Assembly: GCF_900169565.1 (NCBI RefSeq)
Contig: NZ_LT828648.1
Location: forward strand, 3,818,501-3,882,500
Source of the DNA: Nitrospira japonica
Lineage (GTDB): Bacteria; Nitrospirota; Nitrospiria; Nitrospirales; Nitrospiraceae
Reading direction: 5' to 3'
Length of the DNA stretch: 64,000 bases
The notes below the pieces were generated by a model, which was given only the letters and a program-made list of their open reading frames with translations, did no database searches and was not told the origin of the DNA. This document shows, piece by piece, positions 4,563 to 48,175 of the stretch. Every line of letters starts with the position of its first letter. Position 1 is the first letter of the stretch. The position numbers and the translations under genes are program-made.

Positions 4563-5077
4563 GTTTCGCCATGCTCCCGGCTGTGACAATGCGTCATGAC
4601 TTCGAGCAGGGCCTTCGACAGATGCTTCTGGACGGAGCTTTCCGAAATTCCCAGACGGCTCGCCACCTGAGTGTACGTCAACCCGTCCACCCGATTCAGC
4701 ATGAAGATGTGTTGCGTGCGCTCCGGCAGGTTCCCGAGCACGGCCTGGAGCCGCACCCACTCCTGATGCGCCGACAAGGCCACGTCCGCTGGCGCCCGCT
4801 CTTCGGGAATATCCAGCAATTGCTCGTGAGCGGTTGGAAACGTCTGTTGCCGTTCCGCTTTGCGAAAATGATCGATGACCAGGTTGTGCGCCGAGCGGTA
4901 GAGATATGAGCGGACGTTGCCGATGACCTTGGACGCAGGAAGTTCCGCCAGGCGCAGAAAAATGTCCTGCGTGAAGTCCGCCGCCATGTGCGGGCAGCGG
5001 AGCTTTCTGGTCAGCCAGGCCTGGAGCTCCGGCCTGTGGGCAAGAAACAACGACCCGAGGTCTTTTTCAGTCGACAC
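4559..5077 (-). CDS. FecI-type ECF sigma factor (unit 1)
   Basis: A 172-residue ECF sigma factor with region 2 (AADFTQDIFLRLAEL, NLVIDHFRK) and region 4 helix-turn-helix (LTYTQVASRLGISESSVQKH). It is expected to recruit RNA polymerase to the receptor 1 promoter once FecR 1 is triggered. The start is GTG, supported by AAGGAG five bases upstream. The stop overlaps the FecR start. A copy of the shared upstream element is 98 bases before the start. Its sequence is more divergent than that of the sigma factors at 9090 and 13586. Confidence 0.9.
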   Translation of the reverse strand: MSTEKDLGSLFLAHRPELQAWLTRKLRCPHMAADFTQDIFLRLAELPASKVIGNVRSYLYRSAHNLVIDHFRKAERQQTFPTAHEQLLDIPEERAPADVALSAHQEWVRLQAVLGNLPERTQHIFMLNRVDGLTYTQVASRLGISESSVQKHLSKALLEVMTHCHSREHGET

Positions 5078-31512: not shown

Positions 31513-32049
31513 TTACTTATCATCCAACTGAGCCAGCTGTTGCTTTCGAAATGCAGTCGGCGAACATCCAACGGCTCGCTTAAAGAAATGGCTGAAGGCG
31601 AAGGGATCGCTGAACCCAAGCGCCTCAGCGATACGCGTCACCCGAGTCTCCTCACCCGTCAGCATTCGCTTTGCCTTTAGAAGACGGAGCCCTTTCACAT
31701 AATGGGAGAAACAGGTGCCCATTTGAAGTTGAAAAACTTCTGAACTGTATTTCTCCGAATATCCAAGAAAACTTGCAAGCCCCTTTAAGGTGAGCCCTCT
31801 CTCAAGATTCACCCTGACAAAAGCTTCAATACGGGTCGCAAGGGAGGTTTCCACCTGAGGCGAATAGCTCACCGATGGTAAAGCCTCAATAACCCCTTGC
31901 CGCCTCCCGCACTCACTAGAACGACGCCGTTGAGTCCGTCGTTCGACCTGGCCCTCCCACCATTGAGACTTGGAATAATCTGATGGCATCGGGTGGGATT
32001 GTCCCTCTTCGAAATGGGAGATCCTCACGTATATCGCCTTGCTCTGCAT
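31513..32049 (-). CDS. AraC-family transcription regulator, DNA-binding domain only
   Basis: 178 residues. Residues about 70-172 form the AraC double helix-turn-helix (LTLKGLASFLGYSEKYSSEV, then VTRIAEALGFSDPFAFSHFF and the C-terminal CSPTAFRK signature). The first 65 residues are polar and show no sensory domain, unlike PchR-type siderophore regulators, which are larger. AAGGGG seven bases upstream supports the start. The ribosome site directly follows a terminator-like hairpin, with a Fur-like palindrome further up. It probably regulates iron-uptake genes, but the target is unknown. Confidence 0.85.
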   Translation of the reverse strand: MQSKAIYVRISHFEEGQSHPMPSDYSKSQWWEGQVERRTQRRRSSECGRRQGVIEALPSVSYSPQVETSLATRIEAFVRVNLERGLTLKGLASFLGYSEKYSSEVFQLQMGTCFSHYVKGLRLLKAKRMLTGEETRVTRIAEALGFSDPFAFSHFFKRAVGCSPTAFRKQQLAQLDDK

Positions 32050-32065: not shown

Positions 32066-32121
32066 AAAAACGCCCACTATCGAATCGACGTGGGCGCTGG
32101 GAATCGAATTCCTCGGGCCTC
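32066..32121 (-). ncRNA. Candidate leader RNA A (two hairpins ending in a terminator) before the AraC gene
   Basis: Read on the minus strand: GAGGCC, a small hairpin GGAAT-TCG-ATTCC, then AGCGCCCAC, a loop, GTGGGCG and TTTTT. The terminator stem is CGCCCAC (32071-32077 on the plus strand) against GTGGGCG (32090-32096). The T-run ends 17 bases before the AraC start. No minus-strand gene lies close upstream, so the terminator cannot be ending a neighbour. The layout matches candidates B and C. It could act as an attenuator or be a separate small RNA. Confidence 0.5.
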
Positions 32122-32547
32122 TGTGAATGTGGTAGTCGAATATTGATTTCGCTTCTCAATATCATGCCAAGGCTTACTCTGTCAACCTGTCTACCGGCCG
32201 CGACCCTGGGAAACGACGAGCGGCTGACGGCAACAATGCTCGCCCGCATGAGTTCTCCTCCCCACAGGCACAGACCACAATGCGAGGCCACTGACCACTT
32301 GGAATGATTCTGGATTCGCGATTGGTAAGAGTCTTGGCGGTGATCGTTTGCGAGCTTGGCCCACGGCGTTAGATCCTACTATCACGATGGTCGATAGGGC
32401 CACTTGCCTCTACCGCTTACAGAAGTGTGGTTTCGCTGATCTTATTCGTCTTAGCCTATAGGTAGTTACACTCGATCATCTTATCTCTGAATATCTAACC
32501 GAAAGCTGAAGATGGATATCTATATCCCCGATCAGGAGAAGATCACC
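32122..32547. other. Divergent promoter region between the AraC and fur-family genes
   Basis: Apart from the Fur-like palindrome no further regulatory site was recognised. The region is AT-richer than its surroundings near 32440-32510, consistent with the fur-family promoter. Confidence 0.4.
32139..32165 (-). promoter_or_regulatory. Fur-box-like palindrome before leader A
   Basis: ATATTGA at 32140-32146 and its complement TCAATAT at 32156-32162 on the plus strand. In the minus orientation it contains GATATTGAGAA, which also occurs at the site before leader B and before the gene at 41841. Binding by the Fur protein is inferred. Confidence 0.5.
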
Positions 32548-32976
32548 ATGAGGACGATGAATGTGGCGAAGATGTCGCCAAACCGGAGTCGCTTGAAACA
32601 CAGCAAGAAACGGGACATCATCCTGGCCGCATTTGCCACACAGAATCATGTTACGGCCCAGAAACTACACAATTCATTGGCCGAGGAGGGCCACCGAATT
32701 TCTCTGGGGACTATTTACCGGACGATGCGGCTGTTCTGTAAGATGGGGCTCGCTCAGGCAAGACATTGCGAAGCGAAAACGCAGTACGGTCATACGGCGG
32801 CGAAAGGCCGTCATGACCATCTGGTCTGCACGGCCTGTGGCAACATCGCGGAGTTCGAAAATCAGGAGATCGAACGTTTACGAAAGGAGATTGCAGCGGA
32901 AAATGGGTTCACCTTATCCGTTCATAAGCTGGAACTCTATGGGCTCTGCTCCCTCTGCGGTCACTCAGACAACTGA
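32548..32976 (+). CDS. fur: Fur-family metal-dependent repressor
   Basis: 142 residues from MRTMNVAKMS, chosen because CAGGAG lies nine bases before this ATG. A frame from 32512 adds 12 residues. The N-terminal winged helix spans about residues 15-75 (TAQKLHNSLAEEGHRISLGT). The metal and dimer part carries HDHLVC, CxxC (CTAC) and a second CxxC (CSLC), so a structural zinc site is intact. It is one of the few plus-strand genes in the island, divergent from the AraC gene and convergent with receptor 7. It is the natural candidate for binding the three Fur-like boxes seen here. Whether iron, zinc or peroxide is sensed cannot be decided. Confidence 0.87.
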   Translation: MRTMNVAKMSPNRSRLKHSKKRDIILAAFATQNHVTAQKLHNSLAEEGHRISLGTIYRTMRLFCKMGLAQARHCEAKTQYGHTAAKGRHDHLVCTACGNIAEFENQEIERLRKEIAAENGFTLSVHKLELYGLCSLCGHSDN

Positions 32977-36853: not shown

Positions 36854-37372
36854 TCAGTCAGCATCATTTTGCCGCAGGAATGTTCGACAATGGAGGAGCG
36901 CCCGCATGATCAGCTTTTCCACCGCGCTTTCTGAGACGCCGAGATGAGAGGCAATGTCTCGGTATGGACGCTCATGAACGCGGTGAAGGAGAAAGGCCTC
37001 CCGGGAGCGGTGAGGAAGAGAATCGATCGCCCGAGAAAATACTCGAAGTCGTTGTTTGTCATACATAGCCCGCTCCGCTGACGGCGCGCTAGACGGCACA
37101 TCGGCCGCATGATCCAACGTTTCGCCATGCTGCCGCTCTGACTTTCCCTTTCGGAGATAGTCGATGGCAAGATTCGTCGCGGTTCGAAAGAGCAACGCCC
37201 GCGGATATGTAACGGATGTCGTCTGCCCCAGGTTGACCAATCGCAAATACGTCTCCTGGGCCAAATCCGCCGCGGTCTGTTCGCACCGCACCATCCGACA
37301 CAGGCGTCTGGTCAATTCGAACCGGTGTTCGTGGAACAAACGTTCAATCTCGTTACAGGTCAGGTTTATCAT
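36854..37372 (-). CDS. FecI-type ECF sigma factor (unit 7)
   Basis: 172 residues from MINLTCNEIERLFHEHRFEL, with GGGG five bases before the ATG. An ATG at 37393 lies inside the T-run of an upstream terminator and is less likely. Region 2: AADLAQETYLRLVNLGQTT, NLAIDYLRKGK. Region 4: RPYRDIASHLGVSESAVEKL. Unlike the other sigma genes here it lacks the shared upstream element and instead has a Fur-like site followed by leader B. Confidence 0.9.
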   Translation of the reverse strand: MINLTCNEIERLFHEHRFELTRRLCRMVRCEQTAADLAQETYLRLVNLGQTTSVTYPRALLFRTATNLAIDYLRKGKSERQHGETLDHAADVPSSAPSAERAMYDKQRLRVFSRAIDSLPHRSREAFLLHRVHERPYRDIASHLGVSESAVEKLIMRALLHCRTFLRQNDAD

Positions 37373-37393
37373 TTCAACCCCACGTCGCAGCAT

Positions 37394-37451
37394 AAAAAAC
37401 CCACGTGCATCCGCTGATGCCGTGGGCTCTGTCCCGAAAGACTTTGGCCTC
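37394..37451 (-). ncRNA. Candidate leader RNA B (two hairpins ending in a terminator) before the unit 7 sigma gene
   Basis: On the minus strand: GAGGCC, hairpin GTCT-TTCG-GGAC, then AGAGCCCAC, GGCATC, loop, GATGCACGTGGG and TTTTTT. The second stem pairs CCCACG with CGTGGG and GCAT with ATGC. The T-run ends 22 bases before the sigma start. The gene upstream on the same strand has its own hairpin right after its stop, so this second terminator seems to belong to the leader. Confidence 0.5.
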
Positions 37452-37466: not shown

Positions 37467-37498
37467 GATATTGAGAACCGCTATCAGAAATCAATATA
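37467..37498 (-). promoter_or_regulatory. Fur-box-like site before leader B
   Basis: GATATTGAGAA at 37467-37477 and TCAATAT at 37491-37497 on the plus strand, with ATATTGA/TCAATAT arms 16 bases apart. A further CTATCAGAAA half-site lies between. It may hold overlapping Fur sites. Confidence 0.45.
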
Positions 37499-41840: not shown

Positions 41841-43634
41841 CTACCTGACCGCCTCGTGTTTGACACTTAGCAGCGGAGATGCCAGGGCAGCAGCAGTTTT
41901 CTCAACTTCCTCTTCGAGCCAGCGACTGAGCAGTGGATGTGCCAGCCCCCTATCGTTGAGAGCGTAGTCCAAACCAGTCAGCAGCTTCTTATAAGGACCT
42001 GCGCCATAAAGACGATTTGCGATTACCAGCACACGGCTGTGCTTGGATTCTTCCTGGATAATATTCCTGATCTCGCCTACTGCTTTCTCGCGCAACTCAG
42101 GCCAATCCTCCTGCACCGTCGCCGCTCGAATTGATTTCAATTTGCTGCAATGAGACTCTTTCTTGAGACGCTCGATGTTTGCCTCCATCGCCTGCAACCA
42201 TCGGATATTGCCGGTATCAGTTTTTTCTCCGTGGGCAAGGAGTACAACCGTCTCGCTCGAAGGATCTTCACTGACTTCCAGCACGCGTTCATGCAGGATG
42301 TCTGCAACGCGTGCCGACTCTTCATAGCCTCCAAATCCTGCAAACAGCACGGCGCTGCGCACCTGGGTTGTGGCCACGTGGTTCGCCATATGACTCGGGA
42401 TGGTATCCGTCAGTCCCAGGATGTAGTCAGTGCTTTCCTTCATATGATGAGAAAGTGCGTACAGGCGCACAAAGACAATTCGCCTGATTCCCCGTTCTTC
42501 CAGGCGCGTCACCGCCCCTTGGATCACCCTTGGATCCGCCATTCCAAATGCCATTTCGAGATCGTAACGGGCGCGCAATGGTTCAACGAGCCGTTCGACG
42601 GCATCATTCCAGGGCTGCGTCGCGCCATGCGGCATGATGACGATGCCAATTTCATTTGGTAAGGCGGCGGTGTATTGATTGGCGATCCTTTTGAGCCAAA
42701 GCACGATATTGGGATGTGGCATGAGCTCTTCGCCGCCATAGACGACATCCAGCCCTTTGAATCTTTGACCAATCCAGTTGGTAAGCGTCATGCTGTAATC
42801 AAACTTTGGGCCGAGTGTCGCAGGGATGACCACCGTGCTTCCTTTGTGTGCCGCAGCCTGCATAATTAGTTCATCAGCCGTGCGGTTTCTCGCGTCAGAT
42901 TCTGGCGCATCCCTATCGTAGTAGATTACGGCCGTCGCTTCTTTGAATGATTTTCTTTCAGAGATATAGGAGACGAGCTTTTCTAAGTCTCGCTTCATAA
43001 TGCGTTCAGATGCCCCATCGACTGCACCAACACCTACGATGAACAGTCTTTCTTCCTCTGAGTCCTTACTGATCTTTTCCACACGATCCAGTACGATCTG
43101 TTTAATGAGATAGCTGTCGGCCATCGGTGCAGCCCAGCGAATGGTTCCCGGCACTTCATATGCCGACATGCCGACAATGACCTTCTGCAATACGGGATCC
43201 GCTTCAGAAACGAACAGGGGAATGCCGACTACTTGAGTCACGCCTGCCTCCTTGAGTTCCCGCAACGCCTTGATCAGGTAGGCCGAGTACTCGCTCCCAA
43301 TTCCGTTATAGTCACGCCCCACCAGTGCCAATACCGCGGGTGGGTATACTTTTCTAAACTCTGTAAAAGCTGCCTGAGTTTCCTGATTCCCTAGGAAACC
43401 TCGATCAGCCGATACCATGAGGAACCCCGTCCGATCACTCCCTGCAAATGCAAAAGCACCGTCCAACAGCAGCACGAAAACACAGACAACAATGCGCAAC
43501 ACCGGAAACAGCTGGCTGATAGCGCGTGACACGCGCTGTGCGCACAGGAGCCTCTTCTTCCCTGCTTCAGCCAAGACATGCGGGATAGAACGGACTGCGA
43601 TGTCCCATGACTGTAGGTGTTTTGAAGCTGGCAT
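41841..43634 (-). CDS. Exported tandem CbiX/sirohydrochlorin-chelatase-like protein under a Fur box
   Basis: 597 residues from the ATG at 43634. The start is uncertain: a TTG lies at 43643, and the hydrophobic export segment (about 46-66, LRIVVCVFVLLLDGAFAFAG) sits far in. Three chelatase-like repeats are visible. The first (about 70-150) has VSADRG instead of the HG signature. The second (about 330-420) has IVIMPHGATQPWN and VRLYALSHH, so both metal-site histidines may be present. The third (about 460-570) has VVLLAHGEK but no second histidine. CbiX/SirB enzymes insert Co, Fe or Ni into sirohydrochlorin in the cytoplasm; an exported triple-domain version is unusual. A ZIP transporter precedes it. 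Confidence 0.75.
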   Translation of the reverse strand: MPASKHLQSWDIAVRSIPHVLAEAGKKRLLCAQRVSRAISQLFPVLRIVVCVFVLLLDGAFAFAGSDRTGFLMVSADRGFLGNQETQAAFTEFRKVYPPAVLALVGRDYNGIGSEYSAYLIKALRELKEAGVTQVVGIPLFVSEADPVLQKVIVGMSAYEVPGTIRWAAPMADSYLIKQIVLDRVEKISKDSEEERLFIVGVGAVDGASERIMKRDLEKLVSYISERKSFKEATAVIYYDRDAPESDARNRTADELIMQAAAHKGSTVVIPATLGPKFDYSMTLTNWIGQRFKGLDVVYGGEELMPHPNIVLWLKRIANQYTAALPNEIGIVIMPHGATQPWNDAVERLVEPLRARYDLEMAFGMADPRVIQGAVTRLEERGIRRIVFVRLYALSHHMKESTDYILGLTDTIPSHMANHVATTQVRSAVLFAGFGGYEESARVADILHERVLEVSEDPSSETVVLLAHGEKTDTGNIRWLQAMEANIERLKKESHCSKLKSIRAATVQEDWPELREKAVGEIRNIIQEESKHSRVLVIANRLYGAGPYKKLLTGLDYALNDRGLAHPLLSRWLEEEVEKTAAALASPLLSVKHEAVR

Positions 43635-43658
43635 TTGTCCCAATCTCGCCCTTGTTAG

Positions 43659-44509: not shown

Positions 44510-44984
44510 ATGGGACTCATAGCAGAAAGTGTTGTCAGATGGAAAGGGCTAGATTCTCACAAACAAGTCGCCTTGAGTTCTCTGGCAAGGCTGTCTACTG
44601 GGGCGTGCAGATCGACTCTCACATCCGAGGGAACTGTTCCGCCAATGGCAGAAGAGTGAATATGGACGACGCGGCCACTCCTCGCACTTGCGATGGCCAG
44701 ACTGCGTCCTTCCCAACAAGCGAGCGGTCAATCGACCACAGTGCCACCGGATATCCTCATATCCTCGGCGGCAACATTCGTTTTCGCTCATGGCGCCACA
44801 TGATTCTTGCGCATTGCTTCCGGCAGCAAGACACCTAGCGCTCAAACGGAACGCCGATCCGAGACAGCTGATGTCCGGATGCACGACTACAGTCAACTTC
44901 CCTTCTCATGCGCTCCCAATATATGGAAAGGCTGCACGATGGTCGAGTTGACACGCCTGGAGTCTCTATAAGCAGTAGCGCAGG
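44510..44984. other. Intergenic stretch without an accepted gene
   Basis: 475 bases. On the minus strand some blocks look protein-like in alternating frames (for example SLAIASARSGRVVHIHSS around 44640-44700) but stops and frame changes interrupt them and there is no start. It could be decayed coding sequence. Nothing firm is seen. Confidence 0.3.
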
Positions 44985-45431
44985 TTACTTGAACGTAAGC
45001 TTCTTGAGTTCTGCAGCGGGAAGCTCGACCTCGCCGAAATCAGATTGCCCTTTAAAGCTCCCGGCAATGGCAAGAATGAAATCACCAGTTTTTCCATCGG
45101 CCAAGGTAATAGTGACATGGGGGGGAGTACCGTTCCCTGACGGCTTCAGATCGATGTGCTTAATATTGTCGAATTTGATCTTGACAGTCGCCGTTCCACG
45201 CTTGACCGGTACTTCCCGCATTTCATGCGGGACAAAAGCGGTTTCACTGATTTTCTCTTCGTAATAGAAAATAACGTTTTTGACGTCCGTATCCACACCC
45301 TTTGTGTCAGTCGCGACGGCGTGAAACACTTTATCGGACTTAGTCTGCGCTATAGCAGGTCCGCCAACCATAACCCCACATAACACTCCTGAGAGCACCG
45401 TAGCAGCGCAGATGATCGTCGAGCGATTCAT
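44985..45431 (-). CDS. Small exported protein, function unknown
   Basis: 148 residues with a clear export signal (about 1-28, ending AIAQT) and AAAGGAG before the ATG. The rest is predicted mostly beta strand (DVKNVIFYYEEKISETAFVP, VTITLADGKTGDFILAIAG). No domain is recognised. It follows the first tonB gene after 80 bases on the same strand, so it may be a periplasmic accessory of metal uptake. Confidence 0.7.
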   Translation of the reverse strand: MNRSTIICAATVLSGVLCGVMVGGPAIAQTKSDKVFHAVATDTKGVDTDVKNVIFYYEEKISETAFVPHEMREVPVKRGTATVKIKFDNIKHIDLKPSGNGTPPHVTITLADGKTGDFILAIAGSFKGQSDFGEVELPAAELKKLTFK

Positions 45432-47005: not shown

Positions 47006-47971
47006 TTATTCCAACTGATAGTTGATCGGTACCAGCATGACCACAGACCGCCCATCAAGTCCGTGGGCAAGCTGCAAAGGGGACGTGGCCTGAAGCGCCT
47101 CTAATGCCGCAAAATCTAAGACTGGATAGCCTGAACTCTGCTGGATCTCTGCATTCGTGATTCGCCCATCGGGCTCGACACTGACCTGAATCACCACCCG
47201 CCCCTGCCAATGATTTGCCTTCGCTGGCGACGGATACGTTTTTACGTCTTCGAGTCTGGTGCGTAGCGTATTCATCAGCCATCCGTAATCAGGCCGAATC
47301 GATCGATTCACCAAGTTTTTCACTATAGCGGAAGGACGATGCAACACGGCGGCCTGCACCGGCTCAGCTTGCACCTGAACCGTACTTGACTCGCTTTCGC
47401 TTATCATATCTGGAGGCGGTGCTGAGGATTCACTGGTGCTTGCAGCTGCCATGGATTTTGCCACATCGTCATTTCGTTGCGAATGCGGCTCAAACTTGGC
47501 CCTAGCCTCGACAGCGCGCCCCAAGGACAAGTCCGCCTGAGAGTCCTGCTCCTCGTATTGCGGGACCACGGACTCCAGGGAGGACATCACTTGCTGTTGT
47601 ACGGCTCCTTCAGCATAAATTTCGTGCGAGGGCGGCGTCTCCTGCGGTTTGGAACCGTCAGCGATCGTCGCTTGTGGTGAAGGAGCCGCCATGATGGAGA
47701 CATCCCAGTGAAATGGTGCCTGCTGAGGAGCGGGCCGACTAAAGGTGATCTGAAGATTGAACAGAATGGCAGCGATCAAAACCACGCCATGGAAGGCACC
47801 GGAAATACTCCATCCAATTTTCGCAGTCCGCCCCACACGGGAGCGGGGCGTCTCCCGCACTCGAAAGCCTGGCACCGGGGCCAAGACGAGCGGCGACTTG
47901 GACAACAGGGGGGAATGAACCTCATCGAACTGTTGGGAGCTGGGAAAGCCCTGGCGAAGGAAGCGTGTCAT
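47006..47971 (-). CDS. tonB: TonB energy transducer (second copy)
   Basis: 321 residues from MTRFLRQGFPSSQQF, supported by GAGGAG ten bases upstream. A GTG at 48028 would add 19 residues. Anchor helix about 58-76 (IGWSISGAFHGVVLIAAILF), an acidic/Ser/Gln-rich linker, and the C-terminal domain (DYGWLMNTLRTRLEDVKTYP, NHWQGRVVIQVSVEPDG, SSGYPVLDFAAL). It shares the DYGWL entry motif with the first TonB but has a different linker. Leader C and a Fur-like box lie upstream. Confidence 0.88.
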   Translation of the reverse strand: MTRFLRQGFPSSQQFDEVHSPLLSKSPLVLAPVPGFRVRETPRSRVGRTAKIGWSISGAFHGVVLIAAILFNLQITFSRPAPQQAPFHWDVSIMAAPSPQATIADGSKPQETPPSHEIYAEGAVQQQVMSSLESVVPQYEEQDSQADLSLGRAVEARAKFEPHSQRNDDVAKSMAAASTSESSAPPPDMISESESSTVQVQAEPVQAAVLHRPSAIVKNLVNRSIRPDYGWLMNTLRTRLEDVKTYPSPAKANHWQGRVVIQVSVEPDGRITNAEIQQSSGYPVLDFAALEALQATSPLQLAHGLDGRSVVMLVPINYQLE

Positions 47972-48054
47972 TTTATGCCCACTCCTCGCGACAGCATGGC
48001 TGGCCGCAAATCGGTGAATCGTTCGCACTTTGCTTACTGACGGTACTCGAGATG

Positions 48055-48116
48055 AAAAAGCCCAACGCCACCCCCACCGGTGACCTTGGGCTCTGCACTC
48101 AGAGTGCGCTGGCCTC
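48055..48116 (-). ncRNA. Candidate leader RNA C (two hairpins ending in a terminator) before the second tonB
   Basis: On the minus strand: GAGGCC, hairpin GCACT-CTG-AGTGC, then AGAGCCCAAGGTCACC, loop, GGTGGCGTTGGGC and TTTTT. The terminator stem pairs GCCCAA with TTGGGC and GTCACC with GGTGGC (one wobble pair). AGAGGCC could instead pair with GGCTTTT, which would open the terminator. The T-run ends 84 bases before the chosen tonB start. Confidence 0.5.
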
Positions 48117-48160: not shown

Positions 48161-48175
48161 TGATAATTAGTATCA
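48161..48175 (-). promoter_or_regulatory. Fur-box-like site before leader C
   Basis: TGATAAT, T, AGTATCA: the 7-1-7 form of a Fur box with one mismatched pair of positions. It lies 45 bases before the GAGGCC start of leader C, as at the other two leaders. Confidence 0.55.

Follow-up and report, generated by a model that had tools for sequence, protein, structure and literature searches.

On the minus strand of the window analyzed here (the whole 64,000-nt stretch of Nitrospira japonica DNA), the genes for an AraC-family regulator, an ECF sigma factor, and TonB are each preceded by a leader with the same succession of landmarks. A Fur-like box comes first, then GAGGCC and a short hairpin, next AGCGCCCA or AGAGCCCA, and last a terminator hairpin followed by a T run (Table 1). 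The original prediction had described this order, and we recovered it at all three loci, with a spread beyond them that is larger than had been noted. The common layout can be written GAGGCC-N3-hairpin-RGMGCCCA-terminator-T run, and the T runs end 0 to 27 nt before the listed start codons. The upstream neighbor of the AraC leader, said earlier to be divergent, is so and is fur itself. The Fur-like box of this leader overlaps the -10 region of a predicted promoter. All three leaders were more stable than dinucleotide shuffles (fold z scores of -2.7 for AraC, -4.4 for sigma, and -3.3 for tonB). At the sigma locus the landmarks are as described, but a gene start at 37372 is more probable than the listed one at 37393, because relatives have a common ATGATAAA.CTGAC start.

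Table 1. Features of the leader loci in the window (R2, core-only model of the element)
Feature	Position	Strand	Basis or remark
AraC leader, Fur-like box TGAGAAGCGAAATCA	32144-32158	-	Sequence, promoter scan, Fur-box enrichment in relatives
AraC leader, predicted sigma-70-like promoter TTGACA-16-GATATT	32185-32158	-	Promoter scan; upstream of element
AraC leader, predicted core antiterminator hairpin, GAGGCC-CGA-P2-CAGCGCCCACG	32089-32121	-	R2, 35.1 bits, E 1.6e-8; nascent fold, -9 kcal/mol
AraC leader, predicted intrinsic terminator	32066-32098	-	Fold, sequence; 5' arm overlaps core
AraC-family regulator gene (178 aa), downstream target	31513-32049	-	Pfam HTH_18, 5e-21
fur gene, divergent from AraC leader	32512-32976	+	PF01475 FUR, 5.3e-28
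Sigma leader, Fur-like box TGATAGCGGTTCTCA	37472-37486	-	Sequence; enrichment in relatives
Sigma leader, predicted promoter	TAGACA 37521-37516, N17, TATATT 37498-37493	-	Upstream of element
Sigma leader, predicted core antiterminator hairpin	37421-37451	-	R2, 39.3 bits, E 7.7e-10
Sigma leader, predicted intrinsic terminator	37394-37430	-	Fold z -4.42 for 37394-37451
ECF sigma gene, heads sigma-FecR-TonB receptor unit	36854-37393	-	Pfam
tonB leader, Fur-like box TGATACTAATTATCA	48161-48175	-	Sequence, enrichment in relatives
tonB leader, predicted core antiterminator hairpin	48085-48116	-	R2, 43.4 bits, E 4.1e-11
tonB leader, predicted intrinsic terminator	48055-48094	-	Fold z -3.26 for 48055-48116
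tonB gene, downstream target	47006-48028	-	Pfam TonB_C, 1.8e-16
com-like gene relic	44623-44727	-	Frame broken; matched part without its cysteines

Elsewhere in the window, AGAGGCC occurs about as often as chance predicts (9 versus 7.9 expected). We also noted a strong Fur-like box (TATTGAGAATGCATCTCAATA), without the RNA element, upstream of a CbiX-like 600-aa gene (41841-43643, minus strand). Four ECF sigma genes on the minus strand (5' ends at 5077, 9614, 22213, and 26506) have TTCCGGAAAGTARACATKCC in common just 5' of the start, which is perhaps an autoregulated ECF promoter; these four units are likewise without the RNA element.

Distribution and gene context of the element

A strict pattern derived from the three leaders (GAGGCCN{13,17}AGMGCCCAN{8,30}TGGG) matched only the three window sites in the 4.08-Mb genome of N. 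japonica and six new sites in other genomes of the genus, and its reversed control gave no matches. A loose pattern (GAGGCC...GCCCA) was set aside, as its 118 matches in the same genome, versus 93 for the reversed control, are mostly chance. Covariance model R1, built from the nine same-genus copies, matched 143 of 175 genomes of the family, in 18 of 22 genera, with one to seven copies per genome and a best E value of 1.6e-13; many of the matched genomes were outside the training set. In eight genomes for which matches were listed to an E value of 10, a clear score gap separated true copies from noise. Across the phylum, R1 also found the element in a second family of the order and in a few scattered genomes. 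Core-only R2 recovered the R1 loci, so core and terminator go together, and found a few more, several of which are decayed (for example, at 1934726 in the N. japonica genome and at G002:3811925). The former is a fourth, decayed copy in the same genome (G000:C1:1934698-1934756, minus strand, L261), where the HD-GYP gene that follows in relatives was not seen.

An exact-pattern scan across species returned mostly Nitrospira or its relatives, including N. defluvii and N. moscoviensis. A dozen exact-pattern matches outside the Nitrospirota (in Polyangia, Rhodobacter relatives, Holophagaceae, Larkinella, and others) have low model scores and look like chance; several are near-identical between related genomes. 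We excluded the elements of family f6 from the family claim, as they mostly lack the GAG core, though a Fur box is nearby in several. Four leaders of that family (L278, L291, L293, and L284) carry a longer variant, GCTAGCGGT...GAACCC...AGCCCAAGG terminator, before CbiX-like or lipoprotein genes, several with a Fur box; this is possibly a cousin element.

No match in the window was obtained with Rfam 15 at the gathering score, and a permissive Rfam scan of nine element loci gave three weak matches only, far under gathering scores. In the open-access literature, this RNA was not found reported in Nitrospira. The element is therefore supported as a previously uncatalogued RNA family, as had been proposed, and the search of relatives with a covariance model turned up what was anticipated, namely, many copies upstream of iron genes, with compensatory changes.

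About 134 of 152 copies lie directly 5' of genes for TonB receptors, TonB/ExbB, FecI-type sigma factors, AraC or HD-GYP proteins, or small iron-island genes. The first gene on the same strand encodes an HD-GYP protein in 29 cases, AraC in 22, sigma in 21, a TonB receptor in 16, a small zinc ribbon in 12, a Com-like protein, ExbB, or a Bfd-like protein in 8 each, TonB in 7, and others in 21. The Bfd-like assignment is a reading of the cysteine pattern, and these proteins had no Pfam or NCBIfam match. Inspection of the remaining targets suggests a multicopper oxidase, a group of repeat lipoproteins, a cytochrome, and a porin. Median distances from element to gene are 16 to 84 nt in the well-represented classes, and most copies are 0 to 60 nt from the start codon. 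An N. moscoviensis operon has the order TonB receptor, element, HD-GYP, AraC, TonB, sigma, FecR.

The link to Fur and iron made in the original prediction holds across the family: a Fur box (score of at least 11) lies upstream of 76 of 147 copies, compared with 2.4 expected. Promoter-like sites were found at 58 of 77 promoter-proximal copies (9.6 expected), a class made up of the TonB, ExbB, sigma, AraC, Bfd-like, and small zinc ribbon copies, and there the promoter is overlapped by the Fur box. The HD-GYP and receptor copies, with promoter-like sites at 3 of 44 (3.1 expected), are operon internal; they have no promoter, most have no Fur box of their own, and many are close behind another gene. 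About one-third of the classified copies lie inside operons without a promoter. In TonB/ExbB leaders (e.g., L060 and L056), an extra hairpin of free sequence seemingly sits between Fur box and element.

Competing folds of core and terminator

The 152 distinct copies share a nearly invariant frame of GGCC, N3, a G...C-closed stem (P2) of free sequence, RGAGCCCA.G, and the terminator. N3 occurs as AGA, AAA, AGC, AAC, or CGA, and conservation ends at the GA immediately 5' of GGCC. That stems vary yet keep pairing had been seen in the three leaders and was borne out for P2. In 52 cores aligned with MAFFT, its covariation score is 0.252 versus 0.075, a value that none of 500 shuffles reached, and controls slid out of register scored lower. 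When counts were anchored on flanking sequence only, with no structure fitting, pair 3 of P2 was AT in 45 copies, TA in 34, and CG in 12, and 94 were canonical, compared with a null mean of 45 and a maximum of 62. In the outer helix P1 (GGC/GCC), the three inner pairs never vary; because these letters are invariant, P1 rests on thermodynamics and conservation, without support from covariation.

P1 forms around P2 at a probability of >0.5 in 142 of 145 nascent RNAs, whereas GAG is paired into the terminator in 147 of 148 full-length folds; the mean energy is about -29 kcal/mol for the full fold versus -8 kcal/mol for the nascent core. Nearly every copy has a strong terminator. The core is a single imperfect hairpin that takes in both GAGGCC and GCCC and hence is an antiterminator competing with the terminator, not one of two independent hairpins. 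Thus, of the two-hairpin leader proposed originally the terminator hairpin stands, whereas the first hairpin is part of this larger core. Mutually exclusive antiterminator and terminator folds lying 5' of a gene, as found here in silico, are the mark of an attenuator, and on these models it is very probable that the element acts as a cis-acting transcription attenuator, whatever controls it.

The few GGGCTTTT terminators in the same loci that do not belong to an element have GAA or AAA before GCCC, not RGA; terminators in these loci thus do not generally carry RGA at that place. We considered a kink-turn for the internal loop and rejected it by inspection, because its 5' side varies (all five N3 forms occur) and tandem G-A pairs are therefore not constant. 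Leaders with an additional C behind P2 form a subtype, which is found in 20 of 22 AraC leaders and 28 of 29 HD-GYP leaders and is almost confined to these.

A Com-like zinc ribbon linked to the element

A gene for a zinc ribbon resembling the phage Mu protein Com lies directly 5' of several elements, which is how the candidate partner arose. Using one copy as the query, we found Com-like genes in 12 of 12 element-bearing genomes searched. The distance to an element is at most 6.5 kb for all 20 good matches and at most 700 nt for 8 of them, where chance would give roughly 1% per match within 3.5 kb; 38 control loci had no com-like match. Eleven of the 20 linked matches, at about 3.4 kb, are mostly orthologues of one arrangement, and because this arrangement dominates, there are fewer than 20 independent linkage events; several other arrangements exist. 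In the distant families f17 and f8, the com-like gene is less than about 100 nt before the sole element found in the genome, so that com, element, and gene form one unit. At HD-GYP loci, most com-like genes carry a TTGACA promoter and a Fur box of their own. A tandem pair of elements, 100 nt apart, was seen 5' of one com-like gene (L109:2825-2986).

The motif RCxC...KCxRC is kept in these proteins, with R15, C16, C18, K33, C34, R36, and C37 invariant in 14 of them, which is the pattern of a four-cysteine zinc ribbon, and zinc binding is predicted. Homology to phage Com appears weak: the cutoff of Zn_ribbon_Com (PF10122) was exceeded in 5 of 172 genomes (the G003 protein scored 25.1 bits versus a cutoff of 22.9), most members score below it, and 7 of 14 members match at an E value of 0.1 or less. 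The intact copy in the N. japonica genome gave no Com match by itself in Pfam. Searches with the Com-like protein gave no match in annotated phage genomes and no close solved structure. That intact gene (G000:C1:1938180-1938314) is 1.9 Mb from the window, so its action there would be in trans. The window itself has a com relic, in a region (44549-44896, minus strand) flanked by a ZIP-like gene and the gene of a small secreted protein, where the com-element-receptor segment of relatives has been lost. Between TonB and the relic, a secreted-looking 148-aa protein is encoded (44985-45431, minus strand), with counterparts at the same position in G002 and G003.

The site recognized by phage Com is a hairpin loop that carries CC(N)2-3GAG and has a C-G closing pair; the GA is essential for recognition and is protected, the SELEX consensus is bipartite (GAGNNCC...GAGNNCC), and designed hairpin binders contain CCAGAGAG (PMC6483171). 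The element, laid out as GA-GGC-C-AGA-P2-R-GA-GCC-CA, has the letters of the Com motif and the C-G pair, with P2 inserted in the loop. GGCC...NGAGCC is kept in 144 of 148 copies, the N2-3 loop being replaced by N3-P2-R, and GAGGCC and GAGCCCA are both present in 105 of 148. Shared with com-mom of phage Mu are CC...GAG, the C-G closing pair, a GA predicted to be unpaired, two GA-containing half-motifs, a small four-cysteine zinc ribbon, and, in several genomes, the order of com gene, RNA hairpin, and target gene. The systems differ in that phage Com opens a translation-inhibiting structure of mom, whereas the Nitrospira element overlaps a predicted transcription terminator; the apical N2-3 loop of the phage site is here a loop carrying a whole stem, P2. 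Further, the Nitrospira proteins are chromosomal and only weakly alike to Com, and they would act in trans on many iron operons.

Proposed antitermination and alternatives

We propose that Com-like-dependent transcription antitermination forms a second layer of control in the Fur regulon, to which we assign a probability of roughly 0.6. The observations behind this proposal are the RNA family, the covariation of P2, the exclusive folds, the Fur boxes and promoters, the gene context, the com linkage, and the motif match; what we infer is terminator activity in the cell, binding of the Com-like protein, the direction of its effect, and the response to iron. Polymerase coming from a Fur-controlled promoter, or already within an operon, would transcribe GAGGCC-N3-P2-RGAGCCCA, and the nascent RNA would fold first, with GGC/GCC pairing around P2 and C, N3, and RGA forming an internal loop. 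If this hairpin were left unheld, RGAGCCCA would be captured by the far more stable terminator and transcription would stop before the gene. A chromosomal Com-like protein, often itself Fur controlled, would grip CC...GAG, block the terminator, and permit read-through. Both the C-G pair and the free GA required at a Com site are taken up by the terminator fold, so a bound protein should produce antitermination. Under this scheme iron scarcity would have two effects: promoters would be freed by Fur, and terminators by the Com-like protein as it builds up. Both the exclusive antiterminator and the linked Com-like protein go beyond what had been seen originally.

The main rival to this proposal is a small-molecule or metal riboswitch, in which the C-N3/RGA internal loop would bind a ligand reporting iron status and steer the choice between antiterminator and terminator. 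Such a switch would suit the iron-gene context and a small core of two helices whose internal loop is invariant, whose P2 is variable, and whose fold excludes the terminator; some known riboswitches are as small as this element. However, the letters that stay invariant match a target already described for a protein, and a gene for a protein of the Com kind is linked in every genome tested. Moreover, with the terminator as the default, such a ligand would need to reach high levels under iron scarcity; we consider a riboswitch unlikely. The energy gap between full fold and nascent core, together with the strong terminator in nearly every copy, could also be explained by constitutive partial terminators with a stabilizing 5' hairpin, which would damp leaky transcription from Fur promoters without any signal. 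Such terminators would need neither the GGCC block nor RGA before GCCC, yet both are almost invariant, and the few non-element terminators in the same loci do without RGA, which makes this explanation distinctly improbable.

Besides an attenuator, the original prediction had offered a Fur-repressed small RNA akin to RyhB/PrrF, that is, a terminated product of 60 to 100 nt acting in trans. A Fur box and a terminator near iron genes are indeed shared with RyhB/PrrF, and a short RNA would be made at promoter-proximal copies. The Nitrospira element, however, is a multicopy cis leader: the copies are placed 5' of start codons, many genomes have several divergent ones before different genes, nothing is conserved upstream of GAGGCC, and the operon-internal third has no promoters. 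The existence of both promoter-bearing and operon-internal classes means that an attenuator fits and a trans-acting small RNA does not; we give the latter very little credence. The attenuator is favored further by the predicted promoters upstream of the terminators, the copies in relatives, and the compensatory changes. Control of that attenuator by another known RNA-binding protein seems the least probable reading of all. ANTAR proteins (NasR/AmiR/EutV) also set a protein-stabilized hairpin against a terminator at several operons, a protein role that for the element is our proposal, and at least one ANTAR protein is encoded in each of 10 genomes tested. Their targets have two stem-loops whose loops carry a critical A1 and G4 (PMC3369936), whereas the element is one hairpin with a variable loop, and six-base P2 loops with A1 and G4 occur in only 6 of 148 copies. 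The RNA antiterminator (RAT) sites of BglG/LicT are likewise imperfect hairpins of about 30 nt with an internal loop that overlap the 5' arm of a terminator, but their sequence is different and they serve sugar rather than iron genes; the CAT_RBD domain was absent from all 10 element genomes searched, whereas control genomes such as those of B. subtilis and E. coli were positive.

It is conceivable, though doubtful, that the Com-like zinc ribbon is itself an iron or zinc sensor whose metal occupancy sets its grip on the leader hairpins; if so, a second, RNA-level metal regulator would be reading through terminators across the Fur regulon. Com-dependent antitermination, if true, would assign a function in the cell to Com-like proteins, which the literature that we consulted describes from DNA modification in phage Mu, and would add a further system to the few protein-dependent antitermination systems known. 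For Nitrospira, a globally important nitrifying genus in which N. moscoviensis and N. defluvii carry the element, it would mean that iron uptake is under two-layer control, with Fur at the promoter and an RNA-protein switch at the terminator.
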